Positions 7,818-49,806 of a stretch of 64,000 bases of DNA are shown here, one piece after another. Origin of the DNA: Thermostichus vulcanus str. 'Rupite' (GTDB lineage Bacteria; Cyanobacteriota; Cyanobacteriia; Thermostichales; Thermostichaceae); NCBI RefSeq assembly GCF_022848905.1, contig NZ_JAFIRA010000002.1, forward strand, positions 62,001-126,000, read 5' to 3'. The notes beneath the pieces were generated by a model. That model was not told where the DNA came from. It did no database searches and was given only the letters and a program-made list of their open reading frames with translations. The position numbers and the translations under genes were made by a program. How positions within the stretch are numbered: the first letter of the stretch is position 1; each line of letters opens with the position of its first letter.

Positions 7818-8465
7818 ATGAGTGCAAAACTCCGTCATTCTCTATTTCGTGCGAAAGTCTCTCAATCGCTGCTTTCTCAGGCTAAGGGTTTTACCTTGAT
7901 TGAGCTGCTGGTGGTGATTGTGATTGTGGGCGTGCTATCTGCAGTGGCGATTCCTCAGTTTCTCAACCAAATTCGTCGTTCTCGCGTGGCTGAGGCCCAA
8001 GCCGCTCTGACTGATGTCTCCCGAGGCTCTGAAGCTTATCGGTTGGATTGGACCAACTATCCCTCTGAGTACGCAGCAATTGGTCGGGGCTGTAGCTCTG
8101 ATTGGTGTGGCCCTGCCAAAGACAAGTACCAGAATGATCCCTGGTCTGCGCCTAACTATGGTGCTCCTGCACTGCTTACAGATACCCCTGCTCAGCGGGG
8201 TTTGATCATTGCGGTTCTGGGCAATACGGACGTGAATCCGGCCTATGTGAACGTGGGTGGTTTCCCCCTTCTCTGTGAACTGGGCCTTGGGAAAGGGGAA
8301 AAAGCCGTATCCACGGGAGATTACTTTGTTGGAAAGTCTTGTAACGTGTTCGATGATCAGGATTCAGGGGTAACGATAACCTCAGGTGGTTTAACCCTGG
8401 ATCCCTATGGTACAGGTGATGTAAATTACGACTTGACTGATGCAACCGGTACAACTGCATTCTAG
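7818..8465 (+). CDS. Type IV pilin-like protein (prepilin)
   Basis: The 215-residue product has a classic class III prepilin leader: a positively charged stretch ending QAKG, cleavage expected between Gly24 and Phe25, then FTLIELLVVIVIVGVLSAVAIPQF with the conserved Glu at +5. The C-terminal part has four cysteines (two near CSSDWCG, two later) that could form disulfides as in major pilins. PilA-type subunits assemble into thylakoid-independent surface pili for phototactic twitching and DNA uptake. The gene is single, followed by a good terminator, and preceded by a divergent GT41-like transferase. The phototaxis genes at 59-64 kb could control pili of this kind. PilA versus minor pilin cannot be decided from sequence alone. 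Confidence 0.88.
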   Translation: MSAKLRHSLFRAKVSQSLLSQAKGFTLIELLVVIVIVGVLSAVAIPQFLNQIRRSRVAEAQAALTDVSRGSEAYRLDWTNYPSEYAAIGRGCSSDWCGPAKDKYQNDPWSAPNYGAPALLTDTPAQRGLIIAVLGNTDVNPAYVNVGGFPLLCELGLGKGEKAVSTGDYFVGKSCNVFDDQDSGVTITSGGLTLDPYGTGDVNYDLTDATGTTAF

Positions 8466-8568: not shown

Positions 8569-9318
8569 TCAAGATTTCTCCAAGGTACCCGGATCCACGC
8601 CCAGTTCCCGCAGCTTTTGGGCCAGCCGTTCCGCTCGTTGCTCGGCGCTTTCAGCCCGTTGCCGCTCCTGCTCGGCCCGTTGCCGCTCGATTTTTTCTGC
8701 TTCTTCCGGCAGAGGTACCAACTCCCCATTCGGGAAAAAATATCGCAGCTGACGGTTGTGAATGCCCAGGTACAACCCCAGCACCTTGCTCCACCGCCAC
8801 CCTTGCTCTCTCGGCACAATCTCCTCGTATCGCTCTCCCCCTTCCCCCAGCCGCAAACCCATAAACTCCAGCGTCTCTGGCGAAAAATAAAAATACTCCG
8901 GGGTTCTAAAAATCGTCTGATACAGTTCTCGCTTCTCGGTGCGATCCACCTCAGCGGTGGACTCCGAGAGCAGCTCGATGATCAAATCGGGGTATTTGCC
9001 CCCTTCTTCCCAAACCACCCAGGAGCCGCGCGGGTGATTGGACACCCCCTTGACCAAAAACAGGTCCGGCCCACGAAAGTCTTTGGTCTTCAGTTGCTCG
9101 CGGCTGTAGTAGACAGTGAGGTTCCAGGCCAGGAAATAGTCGCTGCGGTCTTGCCAGAGGCGGTGGAGGCAGGTAACCAAGATGAGCAGCTGCAGGGCAT
9201 GGAGGGAGTGTTCCATTTCCGGTTCATCGCTGAGGAGCCCCTGGGCGGAGGGCATGAGCTCTGCTAATTGCTGGCGGGTGAGGGAGTTGGGGTGGGTGGA
9301 TTTGTCTTGAACCAGCAT
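8569..9318 (-). CDS. Uma2-family (DUF820) protein, tandem copy 1
   Basis: A 249-residue Uma2/DUF820 protein with a restriction-endonuclease-like fold: GPDLFLV, then PDLIIELLSEST and TEKRELY supply the expected D...ExK-type residues, followed by the family's EYFYFSPETLEF. The last 40 residues are a charged coiled coil with QERQRAE-like units ending QKLRELGVDPGTLEKS. Uma2 genes are expanded in cyanobacteria; their biological role is not established. Copies 2 and 4 are nearly identical to it over the catalytic domain, and all copies share the ELGVDP tail. The stop lies about 40 bp beyond the pilin terminator, in convergent orientation. Confidence 0.85.
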   Translation of the reverse strand: MLVQDKSTHPNSLTRQQLAELMPSAQGLLSDEPEMEHSLHALQLLILVTCLHRLWQDRSDYFLAWNLTVYYSREQLKTKDFRGPDLFLVKGVSNHPRGSWVVWEEGGKYPDLIIELLSESTAEVDRTEKRELYQTIFRTPEYFYFSPETLEFMGLRLGEGGERYEEIVPREQGWRWSKVLGLYLGIHNRQLRYFFPNGELVPLPEEAEKIERQRAEQERQRAESAEQRAERLAQKLRELGVDPGTLEKS

Positions 9319-9453
9319 GGCTATACCAAGTCCGGTGCCTCCAGCCTAGCCCAAAGCACAGTCGAGTAGCGCCGCAAGGCTTTGGGGTTGGGCCTGGGTG
9401 AGATCCTGGATAAACGCTTTGTCGTGCACAGGAAGGGATCCGTGGCCTTTTCT
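9319..9453. repeat. Repeated spacer of the Uma2 array, copy 1 (135 bp)
   Basis: This spacer, beginning next to the copy 1 start codon with GGCTATACCAAGTCCGGTGC, recurs almost base for base at 10243-10377 and, slightly longer, at 12039-12185. It presumably carries the promoter of each downstream copy and shows that duplication units included spacer plus gene. Confidence 0.9.
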
Positions 9454-10242
9454 CTAACTTAGAGTACCCGGATCCACCCCCAGTTCCCGCAGCTTTTGGG
9501 CCAGCCGTTCCGCCCGTTGCTCGGCGCTTTCAGCCCGTTGCCGCTCCTGCTCAGCTCGTTGCCGCTCTTGTTCCATCCGTTGCCGCTCGATTTTTTCTGC
9601 TTCTTCCGGCAGAGGTACCAACTCCCCATTCGGGAAAAAATACCGCAGCTGACGGTTGTGAATGCCCAGGTACAACCCCAGCACCTTGCTCCACCGCAAC
9701 CCTTGCAAGGACTCCGTCCCGCTGACGCGATCTGTCGGCGCAATCTCCTCGTATCGCTCTCCCCCTTCCCCCAGCCGCAAACCCATAAACTCCAGCGTCT
9801 CTGGCGAAAAATAAAAATACTCTGGGGTTCTAAAAATGCTCTGATACAGTTCTCGTTTTTCGGTGCGATCCACATTAGCGGTGGACTCCGAGAGCAGCTC
9901 GATGATCAAATCCGGGTATTTCCCCCCTTCCTCCCAAACCACCCAGGAGCCGCGCGGGTGATTGGACACCCCCTTGACCAAAAACAGGTCTGGCCCACGA
10001 AAGTCTTTGGTCTTCAGTTGCTCGCGGCTGTAGTAGACAGTGAGGTTCCAGGCCAGGAAATAGTCGCTGCGGTCTTGCCAGAGGCGGTGGAGGCAGGTAA
10101 CCAAGATGAGCAGCTGCAGGGCATGGAGGGAGTGTTCCATTTCCGGTTCATCGCTGAGGAGCCCCTGGGCGGAGGGTATGAGCTCTGCTAATTGCTGGCG
10201 GGTGAGGGAGTTGGGGTGGGTGGATTTGTCTTGAACCAGCAT
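9454..10242 (-). CDS. Uma2-family (DUF820) protein, tandem copy 2
   Basis: A 262-residue near-duplicate of copy 1. The first 150 residues differ at only a few positions (for example LAELIPSAQ versus LAELMPSAQ, TANVDRT versus TAEVDRT). It has a nine-residue-scale insertion around TDRVSGTESLQG before the RWSKVLGLYLGIHN motif, and one more QERQRAE-type repeat in the C-terminal coiled coil. The putative nuclease residues (GPDLFLV, PDLIIELLSES, TEKRELYQ) are intact, so the copy appears functional. It is preceded by the 135-bp repeated spacer. Confidence 0.85.
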   Translation of the reverse strand: MLVQDKSTHPNSLTRQQLAELIPSAQGLLSDEPEMEHSLHALQLLILVTCLHRLWQDRSDYFLAWNLTVYYSREQLKTKDFRGPDLFLVKGVSNHPRGSWVVWEEGGKYPDLIIELLSESTANVDRTEKRELYQSIFRTPEYFYFSPETLEFMGLRLGEGGERYEEIAPTDRVSGTESLQGLRWSKVLGLYLGIHNRQLRYFFPNGELVPLPEEAEKIERQRMEQERQRAEQERQRAESAEQRAERLAQKLRELGVDPGTLS

Positions 10243-10377
10243 GGCTATACCAAGTCCGGTGCCTCCAGCCTAGCCCAAAGTACGGTCGAGTAGCTCCGCA
10301 AGGCTTTGGGGTTGGGCCTGGGTGGGATCCTGGATAAACGCTTTGTCGTGCACAGGAAGGGATCCGTGGCCTTTTCT
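10243..10377. repeat. Repeated spacer of the Uma2 array, copy 2 (135 bp)
   Basis: Near-identical to 9319-9453 and to 12039-12185; it separates the stop of Uma2 copy 3 from the start of copy 2 on the minus strand. Confidence 0.9.
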
Positions 10378-11214
10378 CTAACTTAGAGTACCCGGATCCA
10401 CGCCCAGTTCCCGCAGCTTTTGGGCCAGCCGTTCCGCTCGTTGCTCGGCGCTTTCAGCCCGTTGCTCGGCGCTTTCAGCTCGTTGCCGCTCCTGCTCAGC
10501 CCGTTGCCGCTCCTGCTCAGCCAATAGCCGTTCTTGTTCTGCTTCGGTGGGCAGCAATTCCCCCACTTCGGTGGCCCAGCGGATCCAGGTGGTATCAATC
10601 CCTCGGAAGGAGCCTGTCCACTTCACTAGGTACAGCCCCAGCGCCTCACTCTTCAGTCTTCCCTGAGCATCCGGCTCAATCGGCACATACTGACTACCCA
10701 GCAAGCGAAACCCGGCCCAGTCCTCCGGCGCAAACGGATCAAACCAAAAGTATTCCGGTACCCGAATGATTTGTTCGTAAAGCTGCTTTTTGTGGGTCTT
10801 ATCCGCTTGAGCAGTGCTCTGAGAAAGCAGCTCAATCACCACATCCGGTCCTTTGCCTTGCTCCCAAATCACCCAGCTTTTCCGTTCCCCCTTGGGTACC
10901 CCCAGAACAACAAAATAATCGGGGCCTTTGAAATCGCGGCTGCGAGACTGTTCCAGGCTGTAGTAGAGGAACATATTGCCGCTGACAAAGCCATCCGGTC
11001 GTTTTTGCAGCCAGGTTTCCGTGATGCTGATCAGCAGATCCATTTGGCATTTGTGCCGCCAGGTTTCCATGGGAATGCCATCATCGTAAGGGAGTTCATC
11101 TTGGCCAGGGGGCCATTCAGGAAGGTAGGCCGCATCGGGTTCTTGTAGCAAGGGATCCGCTGACTCCACAACGGGGTTGGTCATGGTAGGGTCTCCGAAA
11201 TCGTTTGAATTCAC
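10378..11214 (-). CDS. Uma2-family (DUF820) protein, divergent tandem copy 3
   Basis: A 278-residue Uma2 protein whose catalytic domain is clearly diverged from its neighbours (GPDYFVVLGVPKG, PDVVIELLSQSTAQ, THKKQLYEQ, EYFWFDP) while its last 25 residues, RAERLAQKLRELGVDPGTLS, match copies 1, 2 and 4 almost exactly. That mosaic suggests gene conversion or exchange at the 3' end. The coiled coil holds both QERQRAE and SAEQRAE units. The GTG at 11214 overlaps the TGA of copy 4 (GTGA), suggesting translational coupling; the ATG at 11184 (MTNPVVESAD) is the alternative start. Confidence 0.82.
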   Translation of the reverse strand: MNSNDFGDPTMTNPVVESADPLLQEPDAAYLPEWPPGQDELPYDDGIPMETWRHKCQMDLLISITETWLQKRPDGFVSGNMFLYYSLEQSRSRDFKGPDYFVVLGVPKGERKSWVIWEQGKGPDVVIELLSQSTAQADKTHKKQLYEQIIRVPEYFWFDPFAPEDWAGFRLLGSQYVPIEPDAQGRLKSEALGLYLVKWTGSFRGIDTTWIRWATEVGELLPTEAEQERLLAEQERQRAEQERQRAESAEQRAESAEQRAERLAQKLRELGVDPGTLS

Positions 11215-12038
11215 TTTTCTAGGCTGGCAGGATCCACCCCCAGTTCCCGCAATTTTTGCGCCAGGCGCTCTGCCCGTTGGCGTTCCTGTTCTGTACGCTG
11301 CCGCTCTTGTTCTGCCCGTTGGCGTTCCTGTTCTGCCCGCTGCCGCTCTTGTTCTGCCCGTTGGCGTTCCTGTTCTGCCCGCTGCCGCTCTTGTTCTGCC
11401 CGTTGGCGTTCGAGGCGCTCGGCTTCTTCCGGCAAGAGCGCCAATTCCCCTGTCGGCAAAAAGTATCTCAGTTGACGGTTGTGAATGCCTAGGTACAACC
11501 CCAGCACCTCACTCCAGCGCCACCCTTGCTCTGTGGCAGGGATCTCTTCGTAACGCAATCCCTCCTGTAACCGCAAACCCATAAACTCCAGCGTCTCTGG
11601 CGAAAAATAAAAATACTCCGGGGTTCTAAAAATCGTCTGATACAGTTCTCGTTTTTCGGTGCGATCCACCTCAGCGGTGGACTCCGAGAGCAGCTCGATG
11701 ATCAAATCCGGGTATTTGCCCCCTTCTTCCCAAACCACCCAGGATCCCCGTGGGTGATTGGACACCCCCTTGACCAAAAATAGGTCCGGCCCACGAAAGT
11801 CTTTGGTCTTCAGTTGCTCGCGGCTGTAGTAGACAGTGAGGTTCCAGGCCAGGAAGTAGTCGCTGCGGTCTTGCCAGAGGCGGTGGAGGCAGGTAACCAA
11901 GATGAGCAGCTGCAGGGCATGGAGGGAGTGTTCCATTTCCGGTTCATCGCTGAGAAGCCCCTGGGCGGAGGGCATGAGCTCTGCTAATTGCTGGCGGGTG
12001 AGGGAGTTGGGGTGGGTGGATTTGTCTTGAACCAGCAT
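11211..12038 (-). CDS. Uma2-family (DUF820) protein, tandem copy 4
   Basis: A 275-residue paralogue whose first 150 residues are almost identical to copies 1 and 2 but whose middle (LRLQEGLRYEEIPATEQG) differs. Its coiled coil is the longest of the array: six to seven consecutive seven-residue units of the QERQRAE type, encoded by alternating 21-bp DNA units. It ends QKLRELGVDPASLEK. It is the first gene of the minus-strand array after the 5' fragment and overlaps copy 3 by four bases, so copies 4 and 3 are probably translated from one mRNA. Confidence 0.85.
   Translation of the reverse strand: MLVQDKSTHPNSLTRQQLAELMPSAQGLLSDEPEMEHSLHALQLLILVTCLHRLWQDRSDYFLAWNLTVYYSREQLKTKDFRGPDLFLVKGVSNHPRGSWVVWEEGGKYPDLIIELLSESTAEVDRTEKRELYQTIFRTPEYFYFSPETLEFMGLRLQEGLRYEEIPATEQGWRWSEVLGLYLGIHNRQLRYFLPTGELALLPEEAERLERQRAEQERQRAEQERQRAEQERQRAEQERQRAEQERQRTEQERQRAERLAQKLRELGVDPASLEK
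11276..11412 (-). repeat. 21-bp coding minisatellite in Uma2 copy 4
   Basis: On the plus strand two 21-bp units, one containing GTTGGCGTTCCTGTTCTG and one containing CTGCCGCTCTTGTTCTG, alternate about three times. Each encodes one QERQRAE heptad on the minus strand. Copies 1-3 of the array have fewer units, so unit number is variable, as expected from slippage or unequal recombination. Confidence 0.9.
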
Positions 12039-12185
12039 GGCTATACCAAGTCCGGTGCCTCCAGGCTAGCCCAAAGGGTGGACCAAAGCACGGTCGAGTA
12101 GCGCCGCAAGGCTTTGGGGTTGGGCCTGGGTGAGATCCTGGATAAACGCTTTATCGTGCACAGGAAGGGATCCCTGGCCTTTTCT
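12039..12185. repeat. Repeated spacer of the Uma2 array, copy 3 (147 bp)
   Basis: The same spacer as 9319-9453 and 10243-10377, with about 12 extra bases near GCCCAAAGGGTGGACC. Confidence 0.88.
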
Positions 12186-12249
12186 CTAGCTTAGGGTACC
12201 TGGATCCACCCCCAGTTCCCGCAGCTTTTGGGCCAGGCGTTCTGCTCTT
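12186..12249 (-). pseudogene. 3' remnant of a fifth Uma2 copy
   Basis: These 64 bp match the last 21 codons of the Uma2 genes (RAERLAQKLRELGVDPGTLS and stop) and are joined to the standard repeated spacer. Similarity stops abruptly at about 12249, where unrelated sequence leads into the next gene. It marks the edge of the array, probably where a fifth copy was deleted. Confidence 0.85.
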
Positions 12250-12280: not shown

Positions 12281-13198
12281 TTACGGGATCAGAATTTGCC
12301 GTAGGGCCTCTTTTAATTGTGGGTATTGAAACGTAAAGCCTGCCTGTAAAGCGGCCTGAGGGATCACCTTTTGCCCCGTGAGCACCACCTGAGCTGCTTC
12401 CCCTAACAGCAGTTCTAGGGCCAGTTCCGGTACGGGTAGCCAAGAGGGGCGGGCTAAAATCTGGCCTAAAGTGCGGCAGAACTCTTCCATTTGTACCGGG
12501 TTGGGAGCGGTGGCATTAAAGATGCCGGATCCCTGTTTGAGCAGGAAGCAAACCAAACTAACCCAATCCTCACGGTGGATCCAGGAGAGCCATTGTTTGC
12601 CGGAGCCAATCGTTCCGCCGATAAAAAACTGAAAAGGGGCTAACATCTGCCCCAGTGCTCCCCCATCCGGCCCCAAGACAATCCCCGTGCGCACAATGGC
12701 CAGACGGATCCCAAGATCTTGCACAGGCCGGGCGGCGGCCTCCCAGGCTTGGCAAACTTCCCCCAGAAAATCCTGGGCAGGGGGGGCGGTTTCCGGCAAG
12801 GGATCCCCTTCGGGATGGGATCCGTAATAGCCCACAGCTGAGCCGCTGATCATCACCTGCGGTTTCTGGCTCAGGGTACTGATCGCTTGTACCAGGGCTT
12901 GGGTGGTTTCCACACGGCTGCGGCGGATTTCTTTTTTCTTGGTTTTTGTCCAGCGGGAGGAGGCTAAGGGTTCGCCCGCTAAGTTGATCAGGCCTTCGTA
13001 CCCTTCTAGAGCAGTGGCCCAGGTTTGCGGTTGGTAGGGATCGTACTGCAGGAGCTTAAGGTTGGCGGGATCCCCTAATACCTTGCGGGTTTGCTCAAGG
13101 TTGCGGGTTAAGACCAAGACGTGATCCCCTTGCTCCAGGAGACGAGCGACCAAGCGACGCCCGATAAAACCACTCCCGCCCGTAATGGCAATGCGCAT
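12281..13198 (-). CDS. TIGR01777-family NAD(P)-dependent epimerase-like protein
   Basis: The product (305 residues from the ATG at 13198) has an N-terminal Rossmann motif, ITGGSGFIGRRLVARLL, followed by LINLAGEPLASSRWT, ISGSAVGYYG and the conserved IVRTGIVLGPDGGALGQML and WIHREDWV segments that define the TIGR01777/YfcH family of extended short-chain dehydrogenases. The C-terminal domain (FNATAPNPV, LLGEAAQVVLTGQKVIP) is complete. Substrate is unknown. The frame is open seven codons further upstream, but the ATG directly before RIAITGGSG is the family start. Its stop lies 30 bp from the Uma2 remnant. Confidence 0.88.
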   Translation of the reverse strand: MRIAITGGSGFIGRRLVARLLEQGDHVLVLTRNLEQTRKVLGDPANLKLLQYDPYQPQTWATALEGYEGLINLAGEPLASSRWTKTKKKEIRRSRVETTQALVQAISTLSQKPQVMISGSAVGYYGSHPEGDPLPETAPPAQDFLGEVCQAWEAAARPVQDLGIRLAIVRTGIVLGPDGGALGQMLAPFQFFIGGTIGSGKQWLSWIHREDWVSLVCFLLKQGSGIFNATAPNPVQMEEFCRTLGQILARPSWLPVPELALELLLGEAAQVVLTGQKVIPQAALQAGFTFQYPQLKEALRQILIP

Positions 13199-13743
13199 GA
13201 TGTGGATCCCTTTTCGCAACCAATGTGTACCCAGTCTGAGTGGGCCAGAGTTCTAGCCTAACTTGTTTCCGTATCTTGTATCGATCTTGTGTCTGTATGC
13301 CTTTGCAGGCGTCCTTTATTTAGACCATTATTTAGATCGTCAAATGAATAAGATTATGAGTGTTGGTGAAACTCAATAGAAAGATTGAGACTAAGAACTT
13401 TATTAAGCCTTCAAAACCTCATTCTGATCTTTATTTATGTATTTCTTTATGTATTATGTGTGTATGTTATGGTGTATATTATGAAAATCTCCTGGAAAGA
13501 TTGCAGACATTCTACATCAAAATATCTCTAATTCTGATGGCTTACATGGTTTTGCATGATGGGTCACATGTCCTGCTCTTTGCCACTGTAAAACATTCAC
13601 CAGAAGTAGAGATGCTACATTTCAGATGATGCAAATAAATCTTTTGTCCCGATTGGGTAGGGCTTGACTCGGTACAGAGCTTCTCTCTCAGGATTAAGAT
13701 TGATCATAACCGACATTGCAGATTATCCTTCCAGCTCAGTGTT
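13199..13743. other. AT-rich spacer upstream of recG, no convincing gene
   Basis: Bases about 13320-13720 are conspicuously AT-rich, with TATGTATT-like repeats near 13435-13485, and lack GGATCC. An 89-codon GTG-started frame (13360-13629) lies here, but it has no ribosome-binding site, biased composition and no recognisable family, so I treat it as chance. The segment may be the scar of a lost insertion. The recG promoter should lie near its right end. Confidence 0.5.
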
Positions 13744-22575: not shown

Positions 22576-23882
22576 GAAAAGCAGCGTAAAGCCCCCGGTT
22601 TCTAACCGGGGGATATAAGCGCACAGGCTGAATTTATTCAGCAACAGAAATAGTACATACAATAGTCCCCATGAAACGGGTCACCACCACACTCAAGCTC
22701 AAGTTTCTTGACCTCAATGCGGTCAAAGCAGAGATGTTCGACCAGACGGTTTGTGCGACAACCGAACTGGCAAACGAACTGCTCCGCATCAGTCCGAAGG
22801 AACGAAAAGCATTGACAACCGCCAAAGTGGTGACACCACTCAAGTCGGCCCTCTCCAACCAGGTGATTCGTGTCCTGAAGGGGAAAGCCGGCCAGCGGGT
22901 CAAACACTTCAAAGTGTTCTGGCCAGAGGTCAACAACCAAAACTGGAAGCTGCACAAAGTAGGTAGCACCTACTCGGTGAGTTTTCCCACGATTCAGGGT
23001 GACAAGCGGGTTCCCCTTGAGGTTAGCAGTTCCTACTATGCCGAGCGTCTTGAGCGCATCCTGGCCGAACAGGATTGTGAACGGGGAACCTTGAAACTCA
23101 TGAAGCTACGGGGCTGTTGGTACGCGGTTGTATCTATCACTTGGGAAGTTCCCGAAGTGAAGAGTACGGAGCGACTGGGTGTTGACCGTGGGCAGAACCG
23201 TTTGGCAGTGGCGGCCACCCGTTGGGGTCGGGCGGTGTTTTTTGGGGGTGGAGAGGTAGCCTATCGTCGTCGTCGTTTCCAGAAGCGTCGTGCCCAGTTG
23301 CAACAGGCGGGTAAATACCGAGCACTCAAGCGACTGGAGCGCAAAGAAGCCCGTTGGATGAGGGCGGTCAACCACACCGTGAGCCGCCGCATTGTACGGT
23401 TTGCCAAGGCGGTGAATGCAGATGTGTGGATGGAAGACCTCTCGGGTATCCGCCAATCCAGACAGAGCCAGAAGGCGCGTTCGGATGCCGGGAAATCGCG
23501 CCATACCTGGTCGTACTACGACCTGGAGTGGAAGGTTGCCTACAAGCTGGAAATGGCGGGCAGGACGCTGCATAAACGTCCTGCTGCCTACACATCCAAA
23601 ACCGACCACAGGACAGGATTGATTGGGAAAAGGAGTGGGCATTTGTTCACCGGGCAGGACGGGTATTGCTGTGATGCCGACTGGAATGCCGCAATGAACC
23701 TAGCCCAGTGGGACGGGTTTTCGTGTCCTTTGAGTCTAAAAGAAGCCCTGCCCGTAATAGGTAGGGTCGGCTCAGGGGATGGGGTAGTTGGCAATCCCCT
23801 GAACTCCATGAATCCCTCACAGCTTCAAGCTGTGGGGAGCTAGAAGGGAGAATCCCCCGGTTAGAAACCGGGGGAGTGTCAA
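22576..23882 (+). mobile_element. TnpB-only IS200/IS605-family element, copy 1 (1307 bp)
   Basis: Left and right borders were set by comparing the two copies. Both are preceded by TTAC and end in TCAA, the left target and right cleavage tetranucleotides known from IS608. Each terminus carries a strong hairpin with CCCCCGGTT/AACCGGGGG stem; a second left hairpin is GCTGAA-TTTA-TTCAGC. The element holds only tnpB, so it needs a TnpA transposase in trans. It contains no GGATCC, unlike the host DNA. No target duplication is expected for this family. The right end supplies the stop codon of the convergent DUF429 gene. Confidence 0.9.
22671..23843 (+). CDS. tnpB: RNA-guided nuclease TnpB homologue, zinc finger degenerate
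   Basis: A 390-residue TnpB/OrfB protein. RuvC motifs are present: LGVDRGQNRLAV with Asp172, VWMEDLSGI with Glu255, and CCDADWNAAMN with Asp335/Asp337. The Zn-ribbon normally found just before the last motif (paired CxxC, as in TSQTCSxCG...) is replaced by YTSKTDHRTGLIGKRSG and GQDGYCC, leaving no CxxC pair. Known TnpBs use an RNA made from the element's right end to cut DNA beside a TTAC-like motif; the catalytic acids suggest this could still work. There is no Shine-Dalgarno sequence; TACAAT ends 7 bp before the ATG, hinting at a leaderless or poorly translated mRNA. Confidence 0.9.
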   Translation: MKRVTTTLKLKFLDLNAVKAEMFDQTVCATTELANELLRISPKERKALTTAKVVTPLKSALSNQVIRVLKGKAGQRVKHFKVFWPEVNNQNWKLHKVGSTYSVSFPTIQGDKRVPLEVSSSYYAERLERILAEQDCERGTLKLMKLRGCWYAVVSITWEVPEVKSTERLGVDRGQNRLAVAATRWGRAVFFGGGEVAYRRRRFQKRRAQLQQAGKYRALKRLERKEARWMRAVNHTVSRRIVRFAKAVNADVWMEDLSGIRQSRQSQKARSDAGKSRHTWSYYDLEWKVAYKLEMAGRTLHKRPAAYTSKTDHRTGLIGKRSGHLFTGQDGYCCDADWNAAMNLAQWDGFSCPLSLKEALPVIGRVGSGDGVVGNPLNSMNPSQLQAVGS

Positions 23883-37527: not shown

Positions 37528-38907
37528 GTGACCTCAACGACGTTTAGTTCTGCAGCGATGCAAGACCGCACCCAGGGTGGATTTGCCTGGTGGGCGGGTA
37601 ATGCACGCTTGATCAACCTTTCTGGTCGGCTTTTGGGTGCCCATGTAGCCCATGCTGGCTTGATCGTCTTCTGGGCGGGGGCGATGCTGCTTTTCGAAGT
37701 GGCTCACTTCACCCCGGATCGGCCCATGTATGAGCAGGGTCTGATCCTGATGCCCCACGTGGCAACCTTGGGTTGGGGCGTTGGCCCTGGCGGCGAAGTT
37801 GTCGATACGTTTCCTTACTTTGTGATCGGTGTGCTGCACCTGATTTCCAGCGCAGTGCTGGGTCTGGGTGGCATTTACCACGCAGTGCGTGGCCCGGAAA
37901 CCTTGGAGCAATCCTATCCGTTTTTTGGCTACGACTGGAAAGATAAAAACAAGATGACCACCATCATCGGCATTCACCTGATCCTGCTGGGCTTGGGTGC
38001 TTTCCTGTTGGTGGCGAAGGCCGTTTGGTTCGGTGGTGTCTACGATACCTGGGCTCCTGGTGGTGGCGATGTGCGGGTGATCACCAACCCGACCTTGAAC
38101 CCCGCAGTGATTTTCGGCTATTTGGTGAAGTCTCCCTTTGGTGGTGAAGGCTGGATTGTCAGCGTTGACAACATGGAAGACGTGATCGGTGGCCACATTT
38201 ACATCGGCATCATCTGCATTGCCGGTGGAATTTGGCACATTCTCACAAAGCCCTTTGGCTGGGCTCGCCGCGCCTTCATCTGGTCCGGGGAGGCCTACCT
38301 CTCCTACAGCCTGGCGGCGGTTTCCTTGATGAGCTTCATCGCCACCTGCTTCATCTGGTTCAACAACACCGTTTACCCAAGCGAGTTCTACGGCCCAACT
38401 GGCCCGGAAGCCTCTCAAGCACAGGCCCTTACTTTCATTGTTCGTGACCAACGCTTAGGGGCCAACATCAGCCAGGCCCAAGGTCCCACCGGTTTGGGTA
38501 AATACCTGATGCGCTCGCCCACGGGTGAGATCATCTTCGGGGGTGAAACCATGCGCTTCTGGGATGTACGTGCACCTTGGAAAGAGCCCCTCTTAGGCCC
38601 GAATGGCTTGGACTTGGATAAGCTCAAGAACGACATTCAACCCTGGCAAGCTCGCCGTGCTGTGGAATACATGACCCATGCGCCGCTGGGATCCCTGAAC
38701 TCCGTGGGCGGTGTGGCTACCGAGATCAACACGGTGAACTTCACCAGTCCCCGCACTTGGTTGGCGGCTCACAACTTCATTCTGGGCTTCTTGTTCTTTG
38801 TCGGGCACCTCTGGCATGCCGGTCGGGCTCGGGCGGCGGCGGCTGGTTTTGAGAAAGGCTTGGATCGCGAAAGCGAACCGGTCTACAAGATGAAGCCGTT
38901 GCGTTAA
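37528..38907 (+). CDS. psbC: Photosystem II CP43 chlorophyll protein
   Basis: The 459-residue product is CP43: [28 protein letters not shown], six membrane helices with paired histidines, the large lumenal loop with [16 protein letters not shown] and [14 protein letters not shown], which holds the Glu and Arg that contact the Mn4Ca cluster, and the C-terminal [20 protein letters not shown]. It is the inner antenna of photosystem II. The GTG at 37528 has its own GGAGG site nine bases upstream, and the gene lies 153 bp after the psbD stop, so it is translated independently. A later ATG at 37558 lacks such a site. Confidence 0.98.
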
Positions 38908-48499: not shown

Positions 48500-49806
48500 G
48501 AAAAGTAGCGTAAAGCCCCCGGTTTCTAACCGGGGGATATAAGCGCACAGGCTGAATTTATTCAGCAACAGAAATAGTACATACAATAGTCCCCATGAAA
48601 CGGGTCACCACCACACTCAAGCTCAAGTTTCTTGACCTCAATGCGGTCAAAGCAGAGATGTTTGCCCAGACGGTTTGTGCGACAACCGCACTGGCAAACG
48701 AACTGCTCCGCATCAGTCCAAAGGAACGAAAAGCATTAACAACCGCCAAAGTGGTGACACCACTCAAGTCGGCCCTCTCCAACCAAGTGATTCGTGTCCT
48801 GAAGGGGAAAGCCGGCCAGCGGGTCAAGCACTTCAAAGTGTTCTGGCCAGAGGTCAACAACCAAAACTGGAAGCTGCACAAAGTAGGTAGCACCTACTCG
48901 GTGAGTTTTCCCACAATTCAGGGTGACAAGCGGGTTCCCCTTGAGGTTGGCAGTTCCTACTATGCCGAGCGTCTTGAGCGCATCCTGGCTGAGCAGGATT
49001 GTGAACGGGGAACCTTGAAACTCATGAAGCTACGGGGCTGTTGGTACGCGGTTGTATCTATCACTTGGGAAGTTCCCGAGGTGAAGAGTACGGAACGGTT
49101 AGGTGTTGACCGGGGGCAGAACCGTTTGGCAGTGGCGGCCACCCGTTGGGGTCGGGCGGTGTTTTTTGGGGGTGGAGAGGTAGCCTATCGTCGTCGTCGT
49201 TTCCAGAAGCGTCGTGCCCAGTTGCAACAGGCGGGTAAATACCGAGCACTCAAGCGACTGGAGCGCAAAGAAGCCCGTTGGATGAGGGCAGTCAACCACA
49301 CCGTTAGCCGTCGCATTGTGCGGTTTGCCAAGGCGGTGAATGCGGATGTGTGGATGGAAGACCTCTCAGGTATCCGCCAATCCAGACAGAGCCAGAAGGC
49401 GCGTTCGGATGCCGGGAAATCGCGCCATACCTGGTCGTACTACGACTTGGAGTGGAAGGTTGCCTACAAACTGGAAATGGCAGGTAGAACTCTACACAAG
49501 CGCCCTGCTGCCTACACATCCAAAACCGACCACAGGACAGGATTGATTGGGAAAAGGAGTGGGCATTTGTTCACCGGGCAGGACGGGTATTGCTGTGATG
49601 CCGACTGGAATGCCGCAATGAACCTAGCCCAGTGGGACGGGTTTTCGTGTCCTTTGAGTCTAAAAGAAGCCGTATCTGTAATGGGTACGGTCGGCTCAGG
49701 GGATGGGGTATTTGGCAATCCCCTGAACTCCATGAATCCCTCACAGCTTCAAGCTGTGGGGAGCTAGAAGGGAGAATCCCCCGGTTTCTAACCGGGGGAG
49801 TGTCAA
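48500..49806 (+). mobile_element. TnpB-only IS200/IS605-family element, copy 2 (1307 bp)
   Basis: Same length and ends as copy 1 (preceded by TTAC, ending TCAA), with only scattered substitutions. Left hairpin identical to copy 1. The right hairpin has the loop TCT where copy 1 has AGA, so the copy 1 right hairpin is the exact reverse complement. No tnpA is present. The element again abuts, and supplies the stop codon of, a convergent minus-strand gene. It contains no GGATCC. Confidence 0.9.
48595..49767 (+). CDS. tnpB: RNA-guided nuclease TnpB homologue, zinc finger degenerate (copy 2)
   Basis: A 390-residue protein differing from copy 1 at about a dozen positions (for example MFAQ versus MFDQ, TTALAN versus TTELAN, EVGSS versus EVSSS, and a few residues near EAVSVMGTVGSGDGVFG). 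RuvC residues Asp172, Glu255 and Asp335/337 are conserved and the Zn-ribbon cysteines are again missing, so the loss predates the two insertions and was kept while the reading frame stayed open. Many of the nucleotide differences are silent, which suggests selection for the protein or recent spread. The same TACAAT box precedes the ATG. Confidence 0.9.
   Translation: MKRVTTTLKLKFLDLNAVKAEMFAQTVCATTALANELLRISPKERKALTTAKVVTPLKSALSNQVIRVLKGKAGQRVKHFKVFWPEVNNQNWKLHKVGSTYSVSFPTIQGDKRVPLEVGSSYYAERLERILAEQDCERGTLKLMKLRGCWYAVVSITWEVPEVKSTERLGVDRGQNRLAVAATRWGRAVFFGGGEVAYRRRRFQKRRAQLQQAGKYRALKRLERKEARWMRAVNHTVSRRIVRFAKAVNADVWMEDLSGIRQSRQSQKARSDAGKSRHTWSYYDLEWKVAYKLEMAGRTLHKRPAAYTSKTDHRTGLIGKRSGHLFTGQDGYCCDADWNAAMNLAQWDGFSCPLSLKEAVSVMGTVGSGDGVFGNPLNSMNPSQLQAVGS

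Follow-up and report, generated by a model that had tools for sequence, protein, structure and literature searches.

The array of Uma2 genes described here very probably arose by a tandem amplification, specific to its lineage, that took in an ancestral pair of genes, A and B, and the 5' end of a neighboring gene, P; it was later eroded and recombined. How the array formed is well supported, while any role in the cell is tentative. The array lies in the window, the whole 64,000-nucleotide stretch of DNA that we analyzed, and is one cluster within an expanded Uma2 family of the host genome, a 3.7-Mb draft of 120 contigs with 46 Uma2 matches (5, 18, 18, 20, and 24 in five congeners).

Layout of the Uma2 array

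A preliminary description had reported four tandem Uma2 genes and the 3' tail of a fifth. Both are real, as all four open reading frames (PF05685/COG4636) score far above the Pfam cut-off of 27 bits (62.5–75.5 bits) and the remnant closely matches the other tails (Table 1). The statement that the joining spacers (135, 135, and 147 bp) repeat one another, and that whole units were duplicated, stood as well; spacer and tail repeats of such length and identity are far beyond chance. Annotated neighbors of the array are a glycosyltransferase, a pilin, a 2OG-oxygenase remnant, and an NAD-dependent epimerase. The start of copy B needed revision: the ATG at 11184 is preceded by GGAG and coincides with the start of the orthologue in congener G001, which makes it the most likely translation start, so that the apparent 4-nt overlap of A and B would be an effect of ORF calling. 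With B starting there, we dropped the overlap as an operon signal.

Table 1. Features of the array and its edges (P', copied 5' end of P).
Feature	Position	Strand	Remarks
Copy A, Uma2, 275 aa, mosaic	11211..12038	(-)	PF05685 75.5 bits; dS step near codon ~156
Copy B, ancestral positional Uma2 gene, 268 aa	10378..11184	(-)	ORF listed from 11214
Copy C, Uma2, 262 aa: body of A type; tail, stop and 3' flank of B type	9454..10242	(-)
Copy D, Uma2, 249 aa: body of A type, tail of B type running into unique flank	8569..9318	(-)	PF05685 74.6 bits
B gene tail remnant (last ~20 codons and stop), 64 bp	12186..12249	(-)	~90% identity to other tails
147-bp spacer P': B 3' flank and ~31 first codons of the apparently lost P, then A leader	12039..12185	(-)
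135-bp spacer P' 3' of B	10243..10377	(-)	97% identity to spacer 3' of C
135-bp spacer P' 3' of C	9319..9453	(-)
24-bp in-frame insertion in C, dispersed repeat family	9707..9730	(.)	D is the empty site
Spacer and 5' two-thirds of D, apparently homogenized with A	8850..9453	(-)	A equivalent ~11570-12185
NAD-dependent epimerase gene, ancestral locus edge	12281..13219	(-)	PF01370/PF08338
Pilin-like gene, opposite locus edge	7818..8465	(+)	PF07963; adjoins P in G004

Several features were recorded elsewhere in the window. Two near-identical 390-residue proteins, named TnpB/OrfB-like by eye, are encoded at 22671-23843 and 48595-49767. A full-length Rfam match to IsrR (antisense to isiA) lies at 37936-38122, antisense to a psbC-like gene (37528-38907), and is perhaps due only to the relatedness of isiA and psbC. 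Finally, GGGATCCC occurs 68 times and GCGATCGC not once in the window; a signature of abundant GGGATCCC and absent GCGATCGC is described in PMC4390886 for Synechococcus OS types A and B from hot springs.

Ancestral gene order and formation of the array

Six genomes were compared, the host (G000) and the five congeners, and among them tandem amplification at this locus was seen in the host only. In G004, the gene order is epimerase, B, P, pilin, and B (87% amino acid identity to copy B) is the sole Uma2 gene between P and the epimerase. In G005, the order is epimerase, B (75% identity), P, with the pilin gene on a separate contig, and within the 425 bp that separate the epimerase from B lies a decayed gene of A type, recognizable at residues 1–31, from 84 onward, at 183–208, and in its tail. 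An A-like gene is also found directly upstream of B in G001 and, as extracted, carries one internal stop and is without its first ~30 residues. These traces of A beside B, together with the synteny of G004 and G005, make epimerase-A-B-P the most economical ancestral order. The preliminary description had named a uniform single-copy state in relatives as an observation against its reading, and half of such a picture was found: B is intact in four congeners; of A, a pseudogene or fragment is left in G001 and G005, and none was found beside B in the other B-bearing relatives. It had also called one copy divergent. Copy B does differ from the others, but congener synteny identifies it as the resident ancestral gene of this position; a late divergent copy was excluded, B being the positional orthologue in the congeners. 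As a separate observation, P of G002 is interrupted by an insert of ~1.3 kb, with B-type remnants upstream (L087:4117-6715).

The product of gene P has 436 residues and carries a 2OG-Fe(II) oxygenase domain. Each spacer begins right after the stop of a B-type tail with the 3' flank of B, followed by a frame, VHDKAFIQDLTQAQPQSLAALLD..., that matches the first ~27–31 codons of P; in the 147-bp spacer this frame reads VHDKAFIQDLTQAQPQSLAALLDRALVHPLG up to a stop and gave a tblastn match to the intact P of G004. The three spacers are copies of the B 3' flank and the P 5' end, and not neutral linkers, their reading frame of 27–31 codons being a gene relic. No other match to P was found in the host genome above the reporting threshold, and the rest of P appears to be lost from it. 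Promoters and terminators in the spacers showed no excess over shuffled sequence. The 135-bp spacers after B and after C are without 12 bp that the 147-bp spacer retains, and the remnant tail, which carries a few private changes of its own, has the outgroup bases at several sites that are changed alike in B and C. These outgroup bases and the 12 extra bp of P indicate that the remnant-bearing unit is the older one. The bases from the epimerase to the remnant resemble, as judged by eye, the leader of the decayed A of G005.

Copies C and D have bodies of A type, with 95–99% DNA identity to A by segment, and 3' ends close to that of B: C differs from B at 2 sites in the last 75 nt, and D shares with B an unbroken run of 78 nt at the tail, while copy A has a tail of its own (DPASLEK). 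We read C and D as A-body/B-tail chimeras, apparently joined within the common coiled-coil-encoding 3' tail. The last residues of D, LEKS, are similar to A's own end, suggesting that the junction in D may be older.

Copy A is itself a mosaic. In the comparison with D, the first 603 aligned sites hold 13 differences and the following 276 hold 67. None of 2000 permutations reached this break, and dS rises from 0.11 in codons 1–157 to 0.85 beyond. This step goes beyond simple duplication and can be explained by conversion or crossing-over; a sharp shift of synonymous divergence along paralogues, the pattern expected of concerted evolution, is thus present in this pair. The units are partly homogenized, as previously proposed, and the near identity claimed over the catalytic domain is true of the spacer and codons 1–157, but past codon ~156 A diverges sharply. 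A paralogue on contig C32 was considered as DNA donor for the 3' third of A: it stands at 78% to A in protein (others 63–68%) and DNA values are 64–65% for all three, and with no nearness at the DNA level no donor is claimed. In codons 1–157, all 11 changes that separate A from D are synonymous (107.5 synonymous and 363.5 non-synonymous sites), an outcome whose chance without constraint is ~0.228^11, or ~1e-7, with sites taken as independent and conversion ignored; C and D differ by ~4.5 non-synonymous and ~7.5 synonymous changes. Selection on the bodies is purifying and not diversifying, and the earlier proposal of diversification under selection finds no support in the A/D comparison.

The comparison shows a unit A-B-P' that was repeated and later eroded. 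Deletion left only the tail of B from the first A and B, and in later units recombination between an A tail and a B tail removed B, so that C and D became chimeras. Homogenization with C and D persisted in the leader and the 5' part of A, not in its 3' third. Near-identical coiled-coil-encoding 3' tails probably served as the seams, through ordinary homologous recombination or unequal crossing-over. This order of events is not unique. Mis-joining during assembly could also produce an array, and the draft state of the genome (120 contigs), the near-identical 5' parts, and the runs of up to 185 bp common to C and D are in its favor; we consider it highly improbable, given that the copies differ at 31–92 sites and by indels, that the array is interior to a 184-kb contig with 185 bp as the longest common run, and that the polarity of remnant and spacers agrees with the outgroups.

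Predicted nuclease and possible cellular roles

The nuclease-like motifs ascribed to Uma2 proteins are kept in the copies (H40, P84-D85, E115, and K129). D85, E115, and K129, with P84, are invariant in 36 aligned relatives, H40 is found in 35 of the 36 rows, the remaining row being gapped, and all four copies retain this H/PD-EXX-K active site. A PD-EXX-K site with a histidine was predicted for COG4636 at the corresponding residues (PMC551604). The structural model of copy D (pLDDT 88) comprises a nuclease-like domain (33–190) followed by a helix (204–238), and it matched solved Uma2/DUF820 structures (6okh, Z 13.6; 9y1l, 12.9; 1wdj, 11.2; 3ot2, 10.4; and also 3ijm), indicating that D would adopt the restriction-endonuclease-like fold of the solved members. 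The helical tail is made of 7-residue repeats, whose number varies among copies and orthologues, and bears a conserved cap, LRELGVDP. Each copy may make a working PD-(D/E)XK-type DNA nuclease, which a coiled-coil tail of variable length could allow to oligomerize; the literature searched held no biochemical nuclease activity data for Uma2. In the least certain part of this main reading, the copies may persist as a nuclease family that is selfish or guards the genome, and not as a specialized multi-subunit machine.

What the copies do for the cell, or for themselves, was considered under three readings of roughly similar odds: selfish persistence, neutral turnover, and defense. Following the hypothesis of Feder and Bujnicki (2005), the nuclease could be a selfish element whose cuts in DNA provoke the recombination by which its own gene is copied. 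This reading, tentative as it is, is consistent with the intact active site, with 46 copies here against 5–24 in relatives, with the destruction of P at the array, and with candidate scars in four congeners, in the form of bodiless or degraded tails, in addition to the host remnant. The chimeras, however, are explicable by homology of the copies alone, nuclease activity being unneeded, and that A has decayed in both G001 and G005 argues against a strong drive. Copies without advantage, made by neutral tandem duplication and gene conversion and transient by nature, are a possibility that we also hold doubtful: A is decayed or absent in relatives, coding minisatellite tails tend generally to unequal crossing-over, and a repeat is inserted in frame in C, but none of the 11 A–D changes is non-synonymous and four reading frames are intact in the host genome.

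Amplification of a defense gene, with anti-phage nucleases whose array raises dosage or widens specificity, seems unlikely, and a dosage advantage from the array as such is possible. The PADLOC candidate family PDC-S03, whose profile is without a curated cut-off and whose name was not found in the literature searched, matches A, B, and D at 19–32 bits (E 3e-4 to 2e-8); the copies are intact and under purifying selection, and Uma2 has been listed among putative restriction enzymes and Tn7 defense cargo (PMC9716671, PMC8649781). Against this, the adjacent genes include no defense genes, A and D show no amino acid diversification, no relative from viral collections was confirmed (IMG/VR pattern matches only), and Feder and Bujnicki (2005) observed no methyltransferase association (PMC551604). 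A cognate DNA methyltransferase, as in restriction-modification, was likewise absent among the immediate neighbors, the wider neighborhood having been read as ORFs only, and no small conserved ORF was recognized between the copies as an antitoxin gene. The analogy with defense clusters drawn in the preliminary description thus keeps only the modest PDC-S03 matches as its support, and the neighbors do not form a defense island.

A broader and rather unlikely proposal is that in Uma2 genes at large the coiled-coil-encoding 3' tails work as recombination seams, at which bodies of paralogues are swapped and neighboring cargo is moved in and out. Tails with no body or almost none are present in G001, G002, G004, and the host genome, with a degraded fragment in G005, and two direct tail copies in G001 flank a block of FkbM and glycosyltransferase genes (L085:9338-14600); these tails and this block suggest that tails may act as seams. 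If the proposal is true, Uma2 families drive local gene shuffling in cyanobacteria, as was guessed in 2005. A second kind of repeat, the 24-bp AAGGACTCCGTCCCGCTGACGCGA, is present in frame in C (9707-9730) and not in A or D, forming an empty/filled pair. Exact matches to its core number 12 in the host and 22, 78, 60, 22, and 0 in the five congeners, in places in tandem with a period of 24. It is similar to the very small mobile repeats reportedly described by Elhai et al. in 2008, a work cited in PMC4390886.

Comparison with known Uma2 systems

Uma2 is a strongly expanded cyanobacterial family of unproven role, and relatives of the array genes are widely placed: 21 of the 79 relative loci fetched have another Uma2 gene within 1.5 kb, and relatives occur on 13 cyanobacterial plasmids. 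No A–B pair was seen outside the genus by motif classification, the motif being crude. Tandem Uma2 clusters are already known, and what is new here is an unusually readable, well-resolved example: with outgroup polarity, one can follow separately how units were duplicated and converted, how chimeras formed, and how a neighboring gene was destroyed. Such a readable array makes the 20-year-old claim of Uma2-provoked rearrangement testable. That claim stems from Feder and Bujnicki (2005), who described tandem COG4636 genes, proposed them to be selfish and recombinogenic, and suggested that dispersed copies may recombine (PMC551604).

The array resembles COG4636/Uma2/DUF820 in general (1wdj, 3ot2, 6okh, 9y1l) in fold, PD-EXX-K site with histidine, high copy number, tandem duplications, and mainly cyanobacterial distribution. 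It differs in its visible stepwise history and in the apparent use of the tail as a recombination seam, and its subfamily differs in the long coiled-coil tail with the conserved LRELGVDP cap. Makarova et al. (2009) reported that Uma2 paralogues form cassettes, which they proposed to be solo toxins (PMC2701414). Like those cassettes, the array has Uma2 paralogues in a row without a recognized antitoxin, whereas here two subtypes are mixed and chimeras occur; a toxin role is putative. In Arthrospira sp. PCC 9108, nine Uma2 genes of 88–100% identity stand in a row (L151:6631-13867) and, as in the host, they are tandem and tailed, with conserved bodies and variable numbers of coil repeats. The Arthrospira array differs in its short intergenic gaps, single subtype, and higher copy number, and a captured neighbor gene was not seen in it. 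Thermosynechococcus TA-1, also a hot-spring cyanobacterium, shares with the host a lineage-specific expansion of nuclease genes (Uma2, RPN); it belongs to a different genus, and the tandem arrays described there are of RPN and not of Uma2 (PMC9403480).
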